From positions 1 to 64,000 of the forward strand of contig SLBA01000072.1 in assembly GCA_007126575.1 (NCBI GenBank): a DNA stretch of 64,000 bases. Direction: 5' to 3'. Source of the stretch: Gemmatimonadota bacterium (GTDB lineage: Bacteria; Gemmatimonadota; Gemmatimonadetes; Longimicrobiales; Gaopeijiaceae). Shown here one piece after another: positions 14,323 through 46,150 of the stretch (position 1 is its first letter; the number at the start of each line of letters is the position of its first letter). The translations under genes were made by a program, and so were the position numbers. The notes below the pieces were generated by a model. It was not told where the DNA came from and did not search any database. It saw only the letters and a list, made by a program, of their open reading frames with translations.

Positions 14323-17300
14323 ATGTTCGCTCCTTCGTTTCGAGTCTGCGGTCGGGTCCGTTCGGCCCTGTCGAACGCCCTGTCGGTCACCGTGCTCCTC
14401 ATGGCCCTGGCCGCAGCGCCGGCAGTGGGCCAGGTCGGTGGCGCCGACGAGCCCCTCCGGACGCACGCCGAGGGTGCGGGCTGGAACGACCTCACTCCCC
14501 ACGAGGCGGTCGTCGCCTTCTACGAGGAGCTGACGGCGCGGTCGAGCGACGTGCGGGTGCGGGAGTACGGGCGCAGCGCGGCCGACCGCCCGCTGCTCGA
14601 AGTGGTACTCTCTCGGCCCCTCGTGACGAGCCCCGCCCAGGCGCACCAGACGGGCAGGCCGATCGTGCTGGTCAACGCCCAGGTGCACGGTGACGAGCAG
14701 GCGAGCAAGGAGGCGCTGATGCTCTTCGCCCGCGACCTCGCCCTGGGAGACCTCAACTTCCTGCTCGACCACGTCATCTTCGTGCTGAGTCCGCAGCTGA
14801 ACCCCGATGGAGCCGAGGCCGGGGACTGGGGTTCCCGGAACAACCTTCGAAACCGGAATGTGAACCGCGACTACCTGCGCCTGGACAGCCCCGAGACCCG
14901 GGCCTTCGTCTCCGAAGTGATCTCGGCGTGGCGCCCCCATGTGATCGTCGACTCCCACGAACTCGTGGGCCCCCCGAGGATCTACGACTTCTACACCAGC
15001 TTCCCGCGCAGCATCGAGGGGCCGACCCTCGCCTACGACCTGACGCGGCACGAGGTGGTGCCCGCGATCGTCGAGGCGCTGGCCGAAGCCGGCTTCGACC
15101 ACTTCCCCTATCACCGGGTTACGAGCGCGCTCGTCGAGGATCCGTCGGTGGGGGTCTCGGCCGGAACCTACGGGGCGCGGGCACTTTCGTCCTACGGCGG
15201 GGCGCGGGCCGCGGTCACGATCCTCTACGAAAGCATGCGTCCTCGCGACGCCCGCGAGAACCTCGAAAGTCGGACCCATCGGCACCACGTCGCCATGCGC
15301 GCGATGGCCGAGTACGTGGGCCAGAATCCGGAGCGGGTCGTCGAGACCGTCCGGCGGGAGCGGGCCGAACTGGTGGAGCGAGGCGCCACCTGGGACCCCG
15401 CGGATTCCATGGCCATCCGGCTCGAGCAGCTCGCGAGTCGCGAACTCGACTACCGGATGGAGTGGGAGGGGGATACCCTCGAGTTCGCGGTGCCCCTCCT
15501 GGACAGTACCCGAATCGAACTCGGGCGCTCGCGACCCGTGGCCTACCTGATCGAGCCCGAGGGGGTCGAGGCGGCTCGCCACCTCGCCCTGCACGGGGTG
15601 CAGGTCGAACGGTTGCAGGCCCCGGCCCGTCTCGAGGCCGAGAGCTACCGGGTAACCAGCGTTGACCGGGCGTCGGCATCGTACGAGGGATACGTGCAGC
15701 GTACCTTCGAGACCGAGCTCGAGACCGGGGAGCTCGAGGTGGCGGCGGGCACCTACCTGGTCCGGATGGATCAGCCCGATGCCAGGGTGATCGGGCACCT
15801 GATGGAGCCCGAGGACGAGAACTCGCTGGCCGCAATGGGGTGGTTCGCCACGAGTGAGCGAACGGGGGCCGTGCTCGGCGTCCATCGACTCCGGGCGCTC
15901 CCGAGGGTGCCCGCCGAGCTCGTCACCCGGGTCGACGGAGAGGGCCGGACGCACTGGGTCGACCGCGAGGACCAGGCCCCGGTCCGCTGGAGTTCGGCCG
16001 CCCTCGAAGGGCCTCTCAGAAGCTACGCGGAGCGAAACGACTGGGCGCTGACCCCGCACGAGGAGGTGCTCGACTTCTACCGCACCCTCGCCGCGCGGTC
16101 CCCTTGGCTTTCGATGCGCGAGATCGGCAGGACGCGTCAGGGCCGCCCCCTGCACCTGGTGACCCTGGCCAGGCCCGGGGCCCTCACCCCCCAGGACGCC
16201 CACGCCTCCGGGCGCCCCATCCTCTTCGTCGGGGCGCAGGTGCACGGCGACGAGCCCGCGGGCAAGGAGGCGCTGATGCAGTTCACACGGGATCTCGTCG
16301 AAGGCCCCCTGGAGCCGCTACTCGACGAGGTGATCTTCCTCTTCGTGCCGCAGATGAACCCCGACGGCGCCGAGACGGGCCCCTGGGGACTCCGCAACAA
16401 CACGGCGGGATTCAACCTGAACCGGGATTACCTCCGGCTCGACAACCCCGAAAGCCGTGCGATCGTCGAAGAGGTCCTGGTGCCCTGGCAGCCCGACGTA
16501 GTCGTCGACGCGCACGAACTCGGGGGGCCACCACGGGTCTACGACTTCTACACCTGGCACCCGACCAACCCCCACGGCCCGGCCGGACCGATGATGCTCA
16601 CGGGCGACCGCCTCATCCCCTCGATCGTCGAGGCGCTCGAAGCCGACGGGTTCTCGCACATCATCTACCACACCCCCGGCGGACTGACCCGCCTGGCGCA
16701 GGAGCCCGAAACCGGAATCGCCGTACCGGTCTACGGTCGCACCCTGAACGACTATGCCGCGTCGCGGGGGCTCTCGACGATCCTCTTCGAGAGCCTTCGG
16801 GAATCCGACGCCCGGGTGGGAATCGAGGACCGCGCGCGTCGACAGTACGTTTCGATGGAGGCGCTCGCCCGCGAGATGGCCGCCCGGCCGACCGAGGTGC
16901 GCGAGGCCCTCCTGGACGGGGCGCGGGAGATGGCCGAGCGCGGAAGCCGGTGGGACCCGGCCGATTCGATCGCGGTGCTCCGGGAGCCGATTCCGAGTCG
17001 TACCGTCGCCTACGACGTGGCGGAGTTCCGGCTGGTGGAGACCGACGAGGGGAGTTCGTGGGAGCCCACCGGCGAGATCATCACCGTCGACGCCCCGCTC
17101 TACGACAGTTCGCGGGTGGTCCTCGGCCGCACCCGGCCGGTGGGGTACCTGATCGAGCCTCATCGCGGAGATCTCGTCGAGGCGCTGCGGACGCACGGGA
17201 TCCGGGTGGATCGACTCCTGGTGGGTGCGACCCTCGAGGTCGAGAGCTTCCGGATCGACTCCCTCTCGCTCGCGTCGAGCGTGTACGAGGGTTACGTCCC

Positions 17301-17532
17301 CCAGCAGTTCCGCACGCACCTCGAAGAGCGAACCGTGGAGGTCGATGCCGGCAGCTGGCTGGTCAGGGCCGATCAGCCCGCCTCGGCCCTCGTCTTTCAC
17401 CTGCTCGAGCCCGACGACGAGAACTCGTTCGCGATCACGGGGGCCTTCCTGTCGGAGGCCCGGGTCGGCGGGGTGCTTCCCGTGCACCGGCTGCGGGAGC
17501 TCCCCCGGGTGCCGAATCGCGCCGTGCCCTGA
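14323..17532 (+). CDS. Secreted protein with two tandem M14 zinc-carboxypeptidase modules
   Basis: A 1069-residue exported protein (signal peptide about 1-38, ending near AVGQ). Two homologous halves of about 520 residues each carry a full M14 active site. Half one has QVHGDEQASKE (His122, Glu125), VDSHEL (His212) and TILYESM (Glu303). Half two has QVHGDEPAGKE (His641, Glu644), VDAHEL (His731) and TILFESL (Glu823). The motif spacing between halves is 519-520 residues, so the gene arose by internal duplication. Each half also ends with a similar beta-rich tail (ending LPRVP). Both copies look catalytically competent. Likely role: extracellular or periplasmic peptide trimming. Confidence 0.9.
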   Translation: MFAPSFRVCGRVRSALSNALSVTVLLMALAAAPAVGQVGGADEPLRTHAEGAGWNDLTPHEAVVAFYEELTARSSDVRVREYGRSAADRPLLEVVLSRPLVTSPAQAHQTGRPIVLVNAQVHGDEQASKEALMLFARDLALGDLNFLLDHVIFVLSPQLNPDGAEAGDWGSRNNLRNRNVNRDYLRLDSPETRAFVSEVISAWRPHVIVDSHELVGPPRIYDFYTSFPRSIEGPTLAYDLTRHEVVPAIVEALAEAGFDHFPYHRVTSALVEDPSVGVSAGTYGARALSSYGGARAAVTILYESMRPRDARENLESRTHRHHVAMRAMAEYVGQNPERVVETVRRERAELVERGATWDPADSMAIRLEQLASRELDYRMEWEGDTLEFAVPLLDSTRIELGRSRPVAYLIEPEGVEAARHLALHGVQVERLQAPARLEAESYRVTSVDRASASYEGYVQRTFETELETGELEVAAGTYLVRMDQPDARVIGHLMEPEDENSLAAMGWFATSERTGAVLGVHRLRALPRVPAELVTRVDGEGRTHWVDREDQAPVRWSSAALEGPLRSYAERNDWALTPHEEVLDFYRTLAARSPWLSMREIGRTRQGRPLHLVTLARPGALTPQDAHASGRPILFVGAQVHGDEPAGKEALMQFTRDLVEGPLEPLLDEVIFLFVPQMNPDGAETGPWGLRNNTAGFNLNRDYLRLDNPESRAIVEEVLVPWQPDVVVDAHELGGPPRVYDFYTWHPTNPHGPAGPMMLTGDRLIPSIVEALEADGFSHIIYHTPGGLTRLAQEPETGIAVPVYGRTLNDYAASRGLSTILFESLRESDARVGIEDRARRQYVSMEALAREMAARPTEVREALLDGAREMAERGSRWDPADSIAVLREPIPSRTVAYDVAEFRLVETDEGSSWEPTGEIITVDAPLYDSSRVVLGRTRPVGYLIEPHRGDLVEALRTHGIRVDRLLVGATLEVESFRIDSLSLASSVYEGYVPQQFRTHLEERTVEVDAGSWLVRADQPASALVFHLLEPDDENSFAITGAFLSEARVGGVLPVHRLRELPRVPNRAVP

Positions 17533-17589: not shown

Positions 17590-18264
17590 ATGAGAACTCG
17601 ACAAGCGATGACCGTCCTGATCGGACTCCTGTTGATCGCGGGCTGTGGCGAGGTGGCCGATCCCGACGCGGGTCAGGTCCCCCCGCCCGACCCGGGTGTC
17701 GAGGCCGCGGCCGAGGCCGTCGAGGAGCTGGGTGGCGATACGGAACTCGCCTCGGAACAGGAGGCTTTCTGGGCCCGCTTCGAGGCGCACTGCGGCCGGG
17801 CCTACCCGGGCACGGTCTCCGACGTCACCCCGCACTATGAGGATGGGGTGGTGGGGGCCGAGATGGTGATGCACCTGATGCGTTGCGAGGAGGACCGCAT
17901 CCACATCCCCTTCCACATCGACGACAACCGCTCCCGCAACTGGATCCTGACCCGGGTAGACGGGACGATCCGTCTGAAACACGACCATCGCAACCCGGAT
18001 GGCACCGAGGAGGAGATCAGCCAGTACGGAGGAGACGCCCCGCGCCCGGGGCTGCCGACGCGTCAGATCTTCCCGGCCGACGAGCACACCGCCTCGATCC
18101 TTCCCGATCGGGCCGACAACTTCTGGTTCTTCGACTTCATCGACGACGAGACCCTGCAGTACGGGGTGCACTGGCCCCGGTTCGGGCATTCGATACGGGT
18201 CGAGTTCGACCTCAGCGACCCGATCGATCCGCCGCCGGCGCCCTGGGGGTACGAGGACGGCTGA
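17590..18264 (+). CDS. Lipoprotein of unknown function
   Basis: A 224-residue product with lipobox LLIAGC near residue 19-20, a Pro-rich spacer and a compact globular domain (about 55-224). Two cysteines in the domain (HCGRAYPG and LMRCEEDRI) could form a disulfide. No family is recognised. It lies 57 bases after the M14 gene and probably shares its transcript. A GTG just before the chosen ATG could also serve as start. Its last 53 bases overlap the 3' end of convergent prmA. Confidence 0.75.
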   Translation: MRTRQAMTVLIGLLLIAGCGEVADPDAGQVPPPDPGVEAAAEAVEELGGDTELASEQEAFWARFEAHCGRAYPGTVSDVTPHYEDGVVGAEMVMHLMRCEEDRIHIPFHIDDNRSRNWILTRVDGTIRLKHDHRNPDGTEEEISQYGGDAPRPGLPTRQIFPADEHTASILPDRADNFWFFDFIDDETLQYGVHWPRFGHSIRVEFDLSDPIDPPPAPWGYEDG

Positions 18265-19138
18265 CCCAGAGCCCACTCCACCAGCCGTCGACCACCCGTT
18301 CCGCCACGACGTCGAGCGGCTCGGAGTCGAGGGCCCCCCGCAGGGTCGGCAGCTCCGATGTGGGGATGCCCGAGAGGAGAACCCAGCCGCCCGGACGCGG
18401 CCGGCGGGCAAGTGATGGGACGAGGGGGAGGAGGGCACCGGGCTCGAGGTTGGCGATCACCCCGTCGACCGGATCGGAGCCCGGGGACGTCCGGAGGCTC
18501 TCGGGGGTCACTTGGGCCTCGATCACCTCGACCCGCGATTCGACGTGGTTCAGCTCCCGGTTCCTGATCGCGGAGCGACAGGCTGACCTGTCGACCTCGT
18601 ATGCCTCGACATGGGCGGCCCCCAGGAGAGCGGCGGCGATCGCCAGGACTCCCGAGCCGGTACCGATGTCGATCAGGCGCTCGCCGGGTCGGACACAGGA
18701 GTCCAGCAGCTCCAGACAGCTTCTCGTGGTCGGGTGTGACGGGGTCCCGAAGGCGAGGCTCGGTGACAGCCGGAGAACCGCGGGGTCGCGGGGGCCGACC
18801 GAGTCCGAGGGGACGACCCGAAGCCGTGGGGAGGCCTGGAAGGGCCGTACGTCGCGCTGCCAGGCCTCGTCGATCTCGGATTCGGATATGGGCGACCACT
18901 CGATCGACTCGACGCCCAGAGAGGTCGAGGCTCGCACGGCCGCCCGCAGGTCGGCCAGAAGCTCGCCGGGGTCGGGGTCGTGGCAGGCGAGGAGGGCCAC
19001 GATCCTGCCTCCACGTCGCGTGATGTGCCTCGCCCCCAGCCGATGCAGGGCGTCTACCAGGAGAAACCCTTCTGCGGCCGGGGGCGGAGGCAGCGTGACT
19101 CGCAGCCACTGCGGCGAGTTGTGGGACCGGGGACTCAA
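18212..19138 (-). CDS. prmA: Ribosomal protein L11 methyltransferase-like protein (PrmA family)
   Basis: The 308-residue protein has an N-terminal alpha/beta domain and a SAM-dependent methyltransferase domain. The PrmA hallmark LAFGTPSHPTTRSCLELLD (about 128-146) precedes the SAM motif IDIGTGSGVLAIAAALLGA (156-174). VIANLEPGALLPL replaces the usual NILA motif, so it is a diverged member. The expected role is N-methylation of L11. Its ATG overlaps the infC stop by 4 bases, indicating coupled translation. The C-terminus, rich in Pro and Arg, runs 53 bases into the convergent lipoprotein gene. Confidence 0.78.
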   Translation of the reverse strand: MSPRSHNSPQWLRVTLPPPPAAEGFLLVDALHRLGARHITRRGGRIVALLACHDPDPGELLADLRAAVRASTSLGVESIEWSPISESEIDEAWQRDVRPFQASPRLRVVPSDSVGPRDPAVLRLSPSLAFGTPSHPTTRSCLELLDSCVRPGERLIDIGTGSGVLAIAAALLGAAHVEAYEVDRSACRSAIRNRELNHVESRVEVIEAQVTPESLRTSPGSDPVDGVIANLEPGALLPLVPSLARRPRPGGWVLLSGIPTSELPTLRGALDSEPLDVVAERVVDGWWSGLWVSRPRTPRAPAADRSGR

Positions 19139-19650
19139 CCGGTGTTCAACGGCTCCAGTCTGGCCACCAGCCTGCGGCCCTCGATTCTCTTCGAGAGCTG
19201 CTCGACCTGGGCGATGTCCTTGGTCGACTCGAGCATGCGCTCGAGCGTCTCGACACCGACCTCGGGTCGACGCAGTTCACGGCCCCGGAAGCGCAGGACG
19301 ACGCGAACGGCGTTGCCGTCTTCGAGGAACCGCCGGGCGCGCTTCAGCTTCGTCTGGAAATCATGATCGTCGGTTCTCGGACGCAGCTGGATCTCTTTGG
19401 TCTCCTGGGTCTGCTGGTTCTTGCGGGCTTCCTTTGCCTTCTTCTGCTGCTCGTACCGATAGCGGCCCCAGTCCATGATCTTGACGACCGGCGGACGGGC
19501 GCGATCCGCGACCTCGACGAGATCGAGTTCGGCCTGATCGGCCATCTCCCGGGCCTTGTCCAGCGATACGATGCCCACCTGCTCTCCATCGGCGTCGATG
19601 AGACGGACGGGGCTGATCCGGATCTGTTCGTTTACGCGTGGGTCGGAAAT
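19135..19650 (-). CDS. infC: Translation initiation factor IF-3, with AUU start codon
   Basis: The 171-residue IF-3 begins ISDPRVNEQIRISPVRLIDA and shows both domains with the basic linker (YEQQKKAKEARKNQQ). No ATG, GTG or TTG fits. An ATT codon at 19648-19650 sits 6 bases after the strong Shine-Dalgarno GGGAGG (19657-19662) at exactly the point where homology begins. AUU is the rare start used by infC in Escherichia coli for autoregulation by IF-3 itself. The gene is followed not by rpmI-rplT, as usual, but by prmA. Its leader (19651-19848) holds a GC-rich inverted repeat and no clear promoter. Confidence 0.93.
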   Translation of the reverse strand: MSDPRVNEQIRISPVRLIDADGEQVGIVSLDKAREMADQAELDLVEVADRARPPVVKIMDWGRYRYEQQKKAKEARKNQQTQETKEIQLRPRTDDHDFQTKLKRARRFLEDGNAVRVVLRFRGRELRRPEVGVETLERMLESTKDIAQVEQLSKRIEGRRLVARLEPLNTG

Positions 19651-19662
19651 CAGATGCCTCCC
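19648..19662 (-). promoter_or_regulatory. infC Shine-Dalgarno and AUU start
   Basis: GGGAGG occupies 19657-19662 on the minus strand, followed by a 6-base spacer and ATT at 19648-19650. An in-frame CTG directly before the ATT is a less likely alternative because it would leave only 3 bases of spacing. Confidence 0.85.
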
Positions 19663-19848
19663 TGCTTGAGAAACGTGCGTGAAATGGGGGGTGGCCCGCG
19701 CGCAGGATCGCGCCTCGGGACACCCATCCTCTATCCGGGTACTCATGAAGCCCGAAAAAGTCCCGATCCGAGCGGGGGGACTGCCGGGAGCCCCCCCGGG
19801 GCGTGTACCTTTTCAGCTTCTGAAACGACCGGAGCCGAGCCCACGCCG

Positions 19849-43555: not shown

Positions 43556-46150
43556 ATGACCTTCGACGCTTCCCTCGTCGGGGGCCTCCGCCGGAGCCTT
43601 TTCGCCGGGTTGGCCCTGGCGTTTCTGCTGCCCTTCGGACTCGAGGCCCAGAGCGCCGCCCTTCAAACCGAGGGCTACCTCGAACCTTCGCCCGAGATCG
43701 CGGCGCTCGTCGATGCTCCGCGTCACGAGAACGTCCTGCTCACGAACCTCAGCCCGGACGGGCAATACTTCCTGGACTCCGAGAGCGAGGGGCTGCCCCC
43801 CCTCGAACTCTTCGCCCGCACGTACTACCGGCTGGGTGGCGTCGAGATCGACCCGGTCGCGAACCGCTCGCGGAACCTGACCACTCGGGGGTCGGCCGGC
43901 TTCCGCCTGATGAACGCCGAGACCGGTGAGCCGCGCGAGATCCAGGTTCCCGCCGGACACTCGGTCACCGGTGCCTCGTGGTCGCCCGACGGGAGCCGGA
44001 TCGCCTTCCTGGCGCATTCCGACACCGAGACGCACCTGTTCGTGGCCGATGTGGCGACCGGCGAGTCCCGGCAGCTCTCCACGAGCCCGCTCCTGGCGAC
44101 CCGGGTCACCTCCGCCCAGTGGAGCGGGGATGGCCGGAACCTGTTCGCGGTGGGAGTCCCGGCGGATCGCGATGTCGAGCCGATGCGGCCTGCGGTGCCC
44201 CGGACGCCTCTGATCCGGATCACCTCCGAAGAGGAGAACACCCTTCGCACGTATGCGTCGCTCCTCAGGGACCCCCACGAGGAAGACCTCCTCGAGTACT
44301 ACACGACCGGCCAGCTGATGCGCTTTCCCGCAGATGGAGGGGATCCGGTGGCCGTCGGTGCGCCCTCGATGATCGAGTCCGTCGACGTGTCGCCTGACGG
44401 GATGAATGTCCGGGTGCGGAGCACGCAGCGCCCCTTCTCGTACATAGTGCCCGCTTCGCTCTTCGGCGATCTCGACGAGATCTGGGACCTCTCCGGAGAC
44501 GTACTGCTCGAAGTCGAGCGTCGTGAGCTCCGTGATGGATCGCAGAACGGGAACGAAGACGACGACGAAGAGGAGCCCCGTCGCTCGATCAGCTGGCACC
44601 CCGGTGGCGAGGGGATCACCTTCCTGCAGCGGGATCCCGAGCGCTCCAACGACGAGGACACCGGCGACGAGGACACCGGCGACGAGGACGCCCGCAACGA
44701 CGGACCCCGCATGGACCGGGTCCTGCACTGGCTGCCCCCGTATGATGCGGGCACCGAGATCGAGCTGTTCGCGAGCGAGCGGGAGATCCGCAGCGCCCGG
44801 TTCTCGCCCGAGGCCGACTGGCTCTTCGTGACCGAACGCCGACAGGGCACCGAGACGCTCTTCGCGGTCGAGCTCGCCGACACCGAGACGCGGCACGAGA
44901 TCTACCGATGGCAGCTCGACGAGTTCTACGAGAACCCCGGAAACCTGATGGGCACGTCGAACGATCTCGGCGTGTCGGTGGTACGGCTCTCGTCCGACGG
45001 AGAGCATGTCTACCTTTCCGGGACCCGGTACTTCGAGAACCCCGATGAGGACGCCCCCCGGCCCTTCGTCGACCGGGTCGCGATCCGGAACGGTGATTCG
45101 GAGCGGATCTTCGAATCCGACGCCGATGTGTTCGAGCGGATCACCGGAGTCCTCGACGACGACATGAACCGCCTGGTCCTGGCCCGAGAGGCTCCGACGA
45201 TGATTCCGGACTCCTGGCTCCTCGACCGGAGCAGTGGGGATCTGCGTCAGCTCACTCGCAACGTGGATCACCACGAGCCCGTGACCAACGCGATCCGGGA
45301 GCGGATCATGGTCACGCGGGTCGACGGAATCTCGTTCAAGGTGGATGTGACCCTTCCGGCCGATTACCAGGAGGGCACCCGCCTGCCGGCGATCTTCTGG
45401 CACTACCCGCGCGAGTACTCCGATGTGGAGTCCTACGAGAACACCCTGAGGACCTACAACAGGAACAGCTTCCCCTCGGTGGGTGCACGCAGCATGGAGA
45501 TTCTCACCGTGGCGGGCTACGCGGTGATCCAGCCGGATCATCCCACGATCGGGCCGTCGAACCGGATCAACGACAACTACCTGGTCGATCTGCGCGCCAA
45601 CCACCTGGCGACGATCGACGCACTCGACGCCCGTGGGTGGGTGGACCGTCAGCGCCTGGCGCTGGGGGGACACTCGTACGGCGGGTTCGGGACGATCAAC
45701 GCGATGGTCCACACCCCGTACTTCCGGGCCGGGATCGCCGGAGCCCCGAACTCGAACCGGCTGCTCACGCCGCTGGGATTCCAGACGGAGCGTCGGAACC
45801 TGTGGGATGCGCGCGAGACCTACAAGAACCTCTCTCCCTTCCTCTGGGCCGACCAGCTCAACGGCGCCCTCCTGATCTACCACGGTGAAGACGACCAGAA
45901 CACGGGGACCTTCCCCGACAACTCCTGGCGCCTGATCCACGCGTTAAACGGGCTGGGCAAGACCGCGGCGCTCTACATGTACCCCTATGAGGGGCACGGA
46001 CAGGCCACGCGCGAGACGCTCCTGGACATGTGGACCCGCTGGGTGGCGTGGCTCGACCACTACGTGAAGGATGCCGACGTGAACCAGCCGGTCGCACCGA
46101 TCACGAGTGTGGTCGACGACTCGGATGCCGAGAACGAGTCTCGCCGGTAG
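43556..46150 (+). CDS. Secreted S9-family prolyl-oligopeptidase-like peptidase
   Basis: The 864-residue exported peptidase has a signal peptide (about 1-33, ending FGLEAQ), a seven-bladed propeller domain and a C-terminal alpha/beta hydrolase domain. The catalytic Ser is in GHSYGG (Ser707), the Asp in HGEDDQ (779-780) and the His in YEGHGQ. A repetitive acidic linker (DEDTG repeats) interrupts the propeller at about 365-380. Likely cleaves oligopeptides outside the cytoplasm. CAGGAG lies 5 bases before ATG. Confidence 0.9.
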   Translation: MTFDASLVGGLRRSLFAGLALAFLLPFGLEAQSAALQTEGYLEPSPEIAALVDAPRHENVLLTNLSPDGQYFLDSESEGLPPLELFARTYYRLGGVEIDPVANRSRNLTTRGSAGFRLMNAETGEPREIQVPAGHSVTGASWSPDGSRIAFLAHSDTETHLFVADVATGESRQLSTSPLLATRVTSAQWSGDGRNLFAVGVPADRDVEPMRPAVPRTPLIRITSEEENTLRTYASLLRDPHEEDLLEYYTTGQLMRFPADGGDPVAVGAPSMIESVDVSPDGMNVRVRSTQRPFSYIVPASLFGDLDEIWDLSGDVLLEVERRELRDGSQNGNEDDDEEEPRRSISWHPGGEGITFLQRDPERSNDEDTGDEDTGDEDARNDGPRMDRVLHWLPPYDAGTEIELFASEREIRSARFSPEADWLFVTERRQGTETLFAVELADTETRHEIYRWQLDEFYENPGNLMGTSNDLGVSVVRLSSDGEHVYLSGTRYFENPDEDAPRPFVDRVAIRNGDSERIFESDADVFERITGVLDDDMNRLVLAREAPTMIPDSWLLDRSSGDLRQLTRNVDHHEPVTNAIRERIMVTRVDGISFKVDVTLPADYQEGTRLPAIFWHYPREYSDVESYENTLRTYNRNSFPSVGARSMEILTVAGYAVIQPDHPTIGPSNRINDNYLVDLRANHLATIDALDARGWVDRQRLALGGHSYGGFGTINAMVHTPYFRAGIAGAPNSNRLLTPLGFQTERRNLWDARETYKNLSPFLWADQLNGALLIYHGEDDQNTGTFPDNSWRLIHALNGLGKTAALYMYPYEGHGQATRETLLDMWTRWVAWLDHYVKDADVNQPVAPITSVVDDSDAENESRR
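44651..44695 (+). repeat. In-gene 15-base tandem repeat coding DEDTG
   Basis: GACGAGGACACCGGC occurs twice exactly (44651-44665, 44666-44680) and a third time with two changes (44681-44695). It encodes DEDTG-DEDTG-DEDAR in an acidic surface loop of the S9 peptidase. The copy number is likely variable between strains. Confidence 0.8.

Follow-up and report, generated by a model that had tools for sequence, protein, structure and literature searches.

The infC gene in the 64,000-nucleotide stretch of DNA analyzed here (hereafter, the window; contig SLBA01000072.1 of a Gemmatimonadota bacterium) is very probably an anciently diverged second gene for translation initiation factor IF3. It belongs to an order of Gemmatimonadota, starts with AUU behind a strong Shine–Dalgarno (SD) sequence, and exists beside a standard infC1-rpmI-rplT operon. 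We refer to the window gene as infC2, to its product as IF3-2, and to the operon copy as infC1. On comparative grounds, infC2 is an old second IF3 that seems capable of substituting for the first. IF3 and its AUU start are known; new are the old second copy and the loss of the first copy from its operon in some genomes.

A second infC gene in the window

From the DNA sequence, a minus-strand IF3 gene had been predicted whose end lies at position 19135, and profile searches confirmed it. The product scored 205.8 bits against the infC equivalog TIGR00168 (cut-off, 60) and exceeded the curated cut-offs of both IF3 domains (PF05198, 105.6 against 26.9; PF00707, 98.5 against 34.8). The predicted 3′ end was correct, but the 5′ boundary, placed at 19662, falls inside the SD run, and the ATT codon lies downstream of it. 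The strong SD site, the lack of rpmI and rplT 3′ of the gene, and the four-base overlap with a prmA-like gene, in which the infC2 stop codon and a TTG codon share TTGA, were all found as described. Coordinates are given in Table 1. The genome that contains the window (G000) comprises 3.68 Mb in 205 contigs, and is 96.5% complete and 1.1% contaminated.

Table 1. Positions of infC2 and associated features in the window
Feature	Position	Strand	Remarks
infC2 (second IF3, IF3-2)	19135..19650	minus	171 codons from ATT; TIGR00168, PF05198 and PF00707
infC2 AUU start codon	19648..19650	minus	ATT in 20/23 copies, ATC in 3/23
SD-like site AGGGAGG	19657..19663	minus	six bases 5′ of ATT; anti-SD duplex −10.9 kcal/mol
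In-frame ATG 5′ of infC2, rejected as start	19744..19746	minus	ACG in G001; weak SD
Candidate attenuator-like hairpin with T-run, 5′ of infC2	19755..19802	minus	T-run position common to the genus
TTGA stop–start overlap, infC2/prmA2	19135..19138	minus	readable in G000, G001 and G002
prmA2, second PrmA-like methyltransferase	18212..19138	minus	PF06325 cut-off exceeded; TIGR00406 cut-off not reached

The T-run of the hairpin upstream of infC2 keeps its position, about −120 relative to the RVN codon, throughout the three genomes of the genus, and the hairpin energies vary (−22.9, −11.6 and −8.9 kcal/mol).

Distribution and ancestry of infC2

A profile built from ten infC2 proteins detected 23 infC2 copies in 22 of the 121 family genomes, with scores of 277–339 bits; the other listed matches scored 232 bits or less. 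In a survey of the class, an infC match was obtained in 287 of 295 genomes, the remaining eight belonging to families f6 and f7. A tree of 99 rows united all 23 infC2 rows in one clade (support, 100/99) apart from infC1, and this clade was joined by six extra copies from families f2 and f3 (100/96). Because infC2 and these extra copies stand together apart from infC1, the split is old, and probably goes back at least as far as the order itself. The presence of infC2 is patchy, requiring seven changes on a thrS/L35/L20 tree, which indicates several events in which the gene was lost or passed on. One genome, G011, carries two infC2 copies (L037 on contig C140 and L038 on C171) whose proteins are 98% identical. 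Their coverage is 26.4 and 5.8, respectively, so the second copy may be a strain variant.

Outside Gemmatimonadota, IF3 looks nearly always single-copy: among 50 genomes reached by similarity to IF3-2 (one of unstated phylum), 48 gave one infC match, one gave two, and one gave a match plus a fragment. The genome with two full matches is G337, whose copy at locus L072 has W70 and R137, residues also found in IF3-2. A search of the open-access literature, with subscription papers mostly outside its reach, found no report of a second bacterial IF3 gene.

It is quite possible, though not the origin that we favor, that infC2 came from an old transfer out of another phylum rather than from duplication within Gemmatimonadota. 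In the tree, three Acidobacteriota IF3s and an f4 copy group with the infC2 clade, W70 and R137 are common to infC2 and several Acidobacteriota rows, and the infC2 products have R129 and E134 in place of the M129 and Q134 of most infC1 products. However, the support for this grouping (91/88) is below the level at which branches were starred, and the Acidobacteriota rows carry M129. The infC2 clade also covers three families, so that any transfer must have been old, and some genera have neighboring genes in common (g1 with G021, and g5 with G018), which suggests vertical inheritance since then. The five Acidobacteriota IF3s that share W70 and R137 with IF3-2 (L073, L074, L077, L084 and L087) differ from infC2 in having M129 and V102 and in being the only infC match in their genomes. 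Two of these loci are titled Thermoanaerobaculum or Thermoanaerobaculaceae. L073 and L077 have ATC with an SD-like site, as well as, in L073, an ATG four codons before it.

The IF3-2 protein

IF3-2 and the infC1 product of its genome share 57% identity. An AlphaFold model of IF3-2 had a mean pLDDT of 86.9 and a pTM of 0.51, the latter leaving the relative placing of the two domains unsure. The best matches of the model in the PDB were IF3 structures, and by domain the N-terminal part matched 1tif (TMt, 0.94) and the C-terminal part 1tig (TMt, 0.88). The dN/dS values of ten infC2 pairs were 0.02–0.08, indicating that infC2 is under purifying selection. Of the E. coli IF3 residues that we take to be 30S-binding sites (R99, K110, R112, R116, R147 and R168), the window protein keeps all except R112, which is replaced with K. 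IF3-2 would most likely bind the 30S subunit in the manner of any ordinary IF3.

Several positions (E. coli numbering) distinguish IF3-2 from the infC1 products. W70 was present in all 23 infC2 copies and all six extra copies of f2 and f3, the residue being Y in 49 of 50 infC1 rows; R137 was present in 20 of 23 and six of six, with H in 48 of 50 infC1 rows. Q97 and V127 were found in 23 of 23 infC2 copies and likewise differ from the infC1 products. The Y70W and H137R changes may reflect an altered role. W70 and R137 also occur together in the five Acidobacteriota proteins mentioned above, each from the sole infC found in its genome; these changes by themselves therefore do not demonstrate a new function.

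Operons that have lost infC1

In genome G017 (92% complete, 6% contamination), thrS, a leader with a terminator, rpmI and rplT follow one another on a single contig uninterrupted by infC, and the single infC match in the genome is infC2. The same gap between thrS and rpmI was observed in G306 and G312, where the IF3 search of the whole genomes used a cut-off under which the infC1 of some relatives falls. These infC1-less loci are L256 (G017), L265 (G306) and L267 (G312). We examined 21 rplT loci, of which L257 ends before the place of infC, and L271 and L272 hold a cut infC at contig ends; no rplT was obtained for G305 and G012. Among the 18 readable loci (17 from infC2 carriers, and that of G003), infC was missing from three, all from infC2 carriers. 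The losses amount to three changes, forced by starred branches of the thrS/L35/L20 tree. The other infC1 loci in this tree were mostly fetched via infC, and the tree consequently does not show the rate of loss in genomes without infC2.

IF3 is essential (PMC5472188). As infC2 was the only IF3 gene found in G017, IF3-2 probably suffices there, and the gene content is most simply explained if IF3-2 is able to act as the IF3 of the cell. By backing up infC1, infC2 would have allowed infC1 to be lost from the operon in three lineages.

An unlikely alternative is that IF3-2 is a specialised ribosome factor, acting in stress, start-codon choice or hibernation together with the second PrmA, and not a general IF3. 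The fixed differences from the infC1 products (W70, Q97 and V127, each in 23 of 23 copies) and the pairing of infC2 with prmA2 in one genus would fit such a role. Against it stand G017, which shows no other IF3 gene and has an operon without infC1, the co-occurrence of W70 and R137 in single-copy Acidobacteriota IF3s, and the lack of any neighbor of infC2 kept in most genera.

The start codon of infC2

Initiation at AUU, as originally proposed, was supported by conservation: the start codon is ATT in 20 of 23 infC2 copies and ATC in the other three (G082, G322 and G325). In ten of the 22 copies scored, no in-frame ATG, GTG or TTG occurs back to a stop codon, and in G021 only five codons separate the upstream stop from ATT. 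The predicted anti-SD duplexes of the 22 scored copies ranged from −5.9 to −13.9 kcal/mol. Start and SD scoring omitted rows in which the anchor motif was missing (G316, P. putida, Clostridiaceae, Faecalicatena and Lactobacillus), and the infC2 start of G316 was read separately. In the three genomes of the window's genus, GGAGGCATCTGATTTCCGACCC is identical, and the stretch 5′ of it contains indels. ATT accounts for only 54 of the 682 Ile codons in window genes (called with our own script), and this rarity argues that the conservation of ATT is not due to codon bias. The six extra copies of f2 and f3 have ATC (five copies) or ATA (one copy) with SD-like sites, two of which are weak. Comparative evidence thus indicates that the AUU start of infC2 is real.

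A canonical start had been described as absent; in fact, the frame stays open 5′ of ATT as far as an in-frame ATG (Table 1), which is not credible as a start. It is very improbable that translation begins at this ATG or at the CTG just 5′ of ATT, which would make AUU control inapplicable. Both codons are in frame with infC2, and the SD strength for CTG (−10.3 kcal/mol) is close to that for ATT (−10.9 kcal/mol). For the ATG, however, anti-SD complementarity is weak (−3.5 kcal/mol). The sister genome G001 has ACG in its place, and alignment of the two genomes shows an indel of one base between ATG and ATT, so that the frame is not kept; the upstream ATG was accordingly rejected as a start. A CTG lies directly 5′ of the start in only four of the 22 scored copies, against ATT or ATC in 22 of 22.

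infC1 and its operon in the same genome

The genome contains three infC matches, located on contigs C13 and C92 and in the window. The original prediction held that the infC-rpmI-rplT operon was broken and suggested locating rpmI and rplT in the genome. Both were found on C92 behind an infC of their own, with thrS upstream, and this rplT is the only match in the genome; the operon is therefore intact, it is infC1 on C92 that belongs to it, and the window gene is an additional copy at a site of its own. Contamination by C92 is unlikely, because four of its proteins are 97–100% identical to proteins of G001, a member of the same genus. That the window gene is the only infC, displaced from a broken operon as its lack of downstream rpmI and rplT might suggest, can be dismissed, since C92 holds another infC with both genes and the tree places the window gene in a clade separate from infC1.

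The C13 gene (G000:C13:13121-13618, L200) gave the best infC score of the genome, 259 bits. It was rejected as a third paralog, because the tree grouped it with Pontivivens (Paracoccaceae; 79% identity, support 100/96), and it is probably a foreign sequence contaminating the bin. Despite this probably foreign contig, there is next to no likelihood that infC2 itself stems from faulty binning or is a duplicate in decay, as its flanking genes are the same in G001 and G002, it is present in the single-contig genomes G006 and G082, and its dN/dS values are low.

Among 50 infC1 rows, 47 have an AUH start candidate (35 ATC, 8 ATA and 4 ATT); the others are G065 and G059, both with GTG, and G054. In 20 of these 50 rows, the frame holds no ATG, GTG or TTG between the preceding stop and the candidate start, and in 13 rows such a codon lies at most 16 codons away, making the start less sure there. 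The 50 rows, labeled canonical, include one probable extra copy, from G084: its copies on C105 (canonical) and C33 (second) were labeled by score, and a leader match and the tree suggest the reverse.

A leader RNA upstream of infC1

Of 50 infC1 rows, 45 carry a terminator-like hairpin with a T-run 43–96 nt 5′ of the RVN codon, against none of 22 infC2 rows, and TTGAC occurred at −300 to −195 from the infC1 start in 42 of 47. In the window's genome, this conserved structured leader of infC1 spans L002:1303-1376 (G000:C92:10084-10157). Six of the 50 rows gave no leader, either for want of a T-run in reach or because the contig was too short. We aligned 27 of 44 leaders, dropping divergent ones and one near-duplicate, so that the pair counts lean to similar leaders; on this alignment, RNAalifold predicted 24 pairs, at 16 of which one or more sequences differ on both sides. 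All 27 leaders share an invariant AA and a run of two C-G pairs. These are the two marks of the L20 leaders (PMC7247131), which are described from Firmicutes, Gammaproteobacteria and Deltaproteobacteria (PMC7247131, PMC6097659); the infC-rpmI-rplT operon of B. subtilis is regulated by attenuation under L20 control (PMC6097659, PMC10931766). The infC1 leader shares these marks with the L20 leaders, followed by a terminator-like hairpin, but differs in having no Rfam family match and in being absent before infC2.

With stricter filters and E ≤ 0.01, a covariance model of the leader matched once in each of 41 genomes out of 121 from the class, and gave no match at this threshold in the other 80. 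By coordinates, 30 of the 41 matches lie just upstream of a listed infC, and 11 were not placeable from the lists. Upstream of infC2, the model found the leader at none of 23 loci, its two weak matches lying elsewhere, and its best match in the window scored 16.4 bits at position 43782. At E values of up to 1, Rfam matched none of 14 infC1 and infC2 loci, and a search of the window and six loci assigned to Actinomycetota by title returned nothing relevant and one tRNA overall. Among 18 loci of actinobacterial type (by title or tree), 11 showed weak matches to the model beginning about 170–265 nt upstream of the infC match (E, 0.001–0.6), suggesting that the leader motif may be wider; these were L078, L080, L090, L096, L100, L102, L103, L104, L106, L112 and L116. 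In an antiterminator comparison that used 42 of 44 leaders, and in which the script picked wrong hairpins at many loci, the leaders' own pairing scored 5.52 and shuffled pairing a mean of 4.98 (maximum, 5.40).

Where infC1 has been lost, the leader was detected before rpmI-rplT in G017 (43.6 bits) and, weakly, in G312 (19.0 bits); in G306 the model gave a stray match only, though a similar sequence is visible. Retention of the leader before rpmI-rplT without infC1 favors L20 over IF3 as its ligand. No report of such a leader in Gemmatimonadota was found in the open-access literature (subscription papers were mostly outside the search).

Possible regulation of two IF3 genes

IF3 represses non-canonical starts, and infC is autoregulated, with ATT as its start codon in E. 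coli and ATC in Streptomyces (PMC5472188); in S. aureus the infC start is AUA (PMC13009471). The E. coli infC adjoins rpmI-rplT (PMC10931766). infC2 resembles E. coli infC in both IF3 domains, in AUU with an SD site, and in most of the 30S-contact residues. The E. coli AUU gene stands with rpmI-rplT, whereas in the window's genome AUU opens a second copy at a separate locus and AUC opens the first. The Streptomyces and S. aureus genes have AUH starts like infC1 of Gemmatimonadota, and a second infC is not mentioned in the accessible portions of the reports on them (PMC5472188, PMC13009471).

The two Gemmatimonadota genes both start with AUH codons, mostly AUC or AUA in infC1 and mostly AUU in infC2. 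Considering that IF3 destabilises initiation complexes on AUH codons, either IF3 would lower the expression of both genes, and joint feedback on the pair would set the total IF3. IF3 thus probably represses both infC1 and infC2. The original suggestion that infC2 preserves autoregulation is plausible; with two AUH-started IF3 genes, control would be shared or crossed. As a more tentative idea, for which we see some but not prevailing reason, the pair may be mutually repressing and may have collapsed repeatedly to IF3-2, infC1 being excised and its leader left in control of rpmI-rplT; the start-codon stringency set by IF3-2 might differ through W70 and R137. If true, switching between two IF3s would retune initiation genome-wide. 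An old second IF3 with an IF3-repressed start offers a natural test of AUU feedback acting on two genes, and the persistence of infC2 where infC1 left the operon offers one of the replacement of an essential translation factor.

prmA2 and the neighborhood of infC2

On sequence comparison, the prmA-like gene that overlaps infC2 is a second copy of prmA (prmA2). Its product has the PF06325 domain (159.9 bits) in common with PrmA, the L11 methyltransferase, but differs from the PrmA equivalog in scoring only 140.8 bits against TIGR00406 (cut-off, 183.15). The product of the dnaJ-linked prmA of the same genome (C18) scored 207.3 bits, compared with 159.4 for that of prmA2, and the two proteins are 37% identical. 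Among the loci compared, infC2 and prmA2 are adjacent only in the window's genus (G000, G001 and G002), where infC2 is probably the first gene of a two-gene unit; a joint function of the two would be a guess. Elsewhere, a prmA2 homolog was found downstream of infC2 at about 6 kb in G011, 3 kb in G316 and 25 kb in G021.

Gene calls around 24 second-IF3 loci revealed no neighbor kept in most genera: after IF3 itself (22 loci), the largest cluster of neighbors comprised seven loci. Shared genes were found between g1 and G021 and between g5 and G018, and prmA2 is common to g1, G011 and G316. These calls were made with a crude home-made gene caller, which missed the window infC2 and the copy of G026. 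Elsewhere in the window, positions 14323-17532 encode a 1069-aa protein that gave two overlapping matches to each homolog, one at about 48%, and that probably contains an internal duplication.
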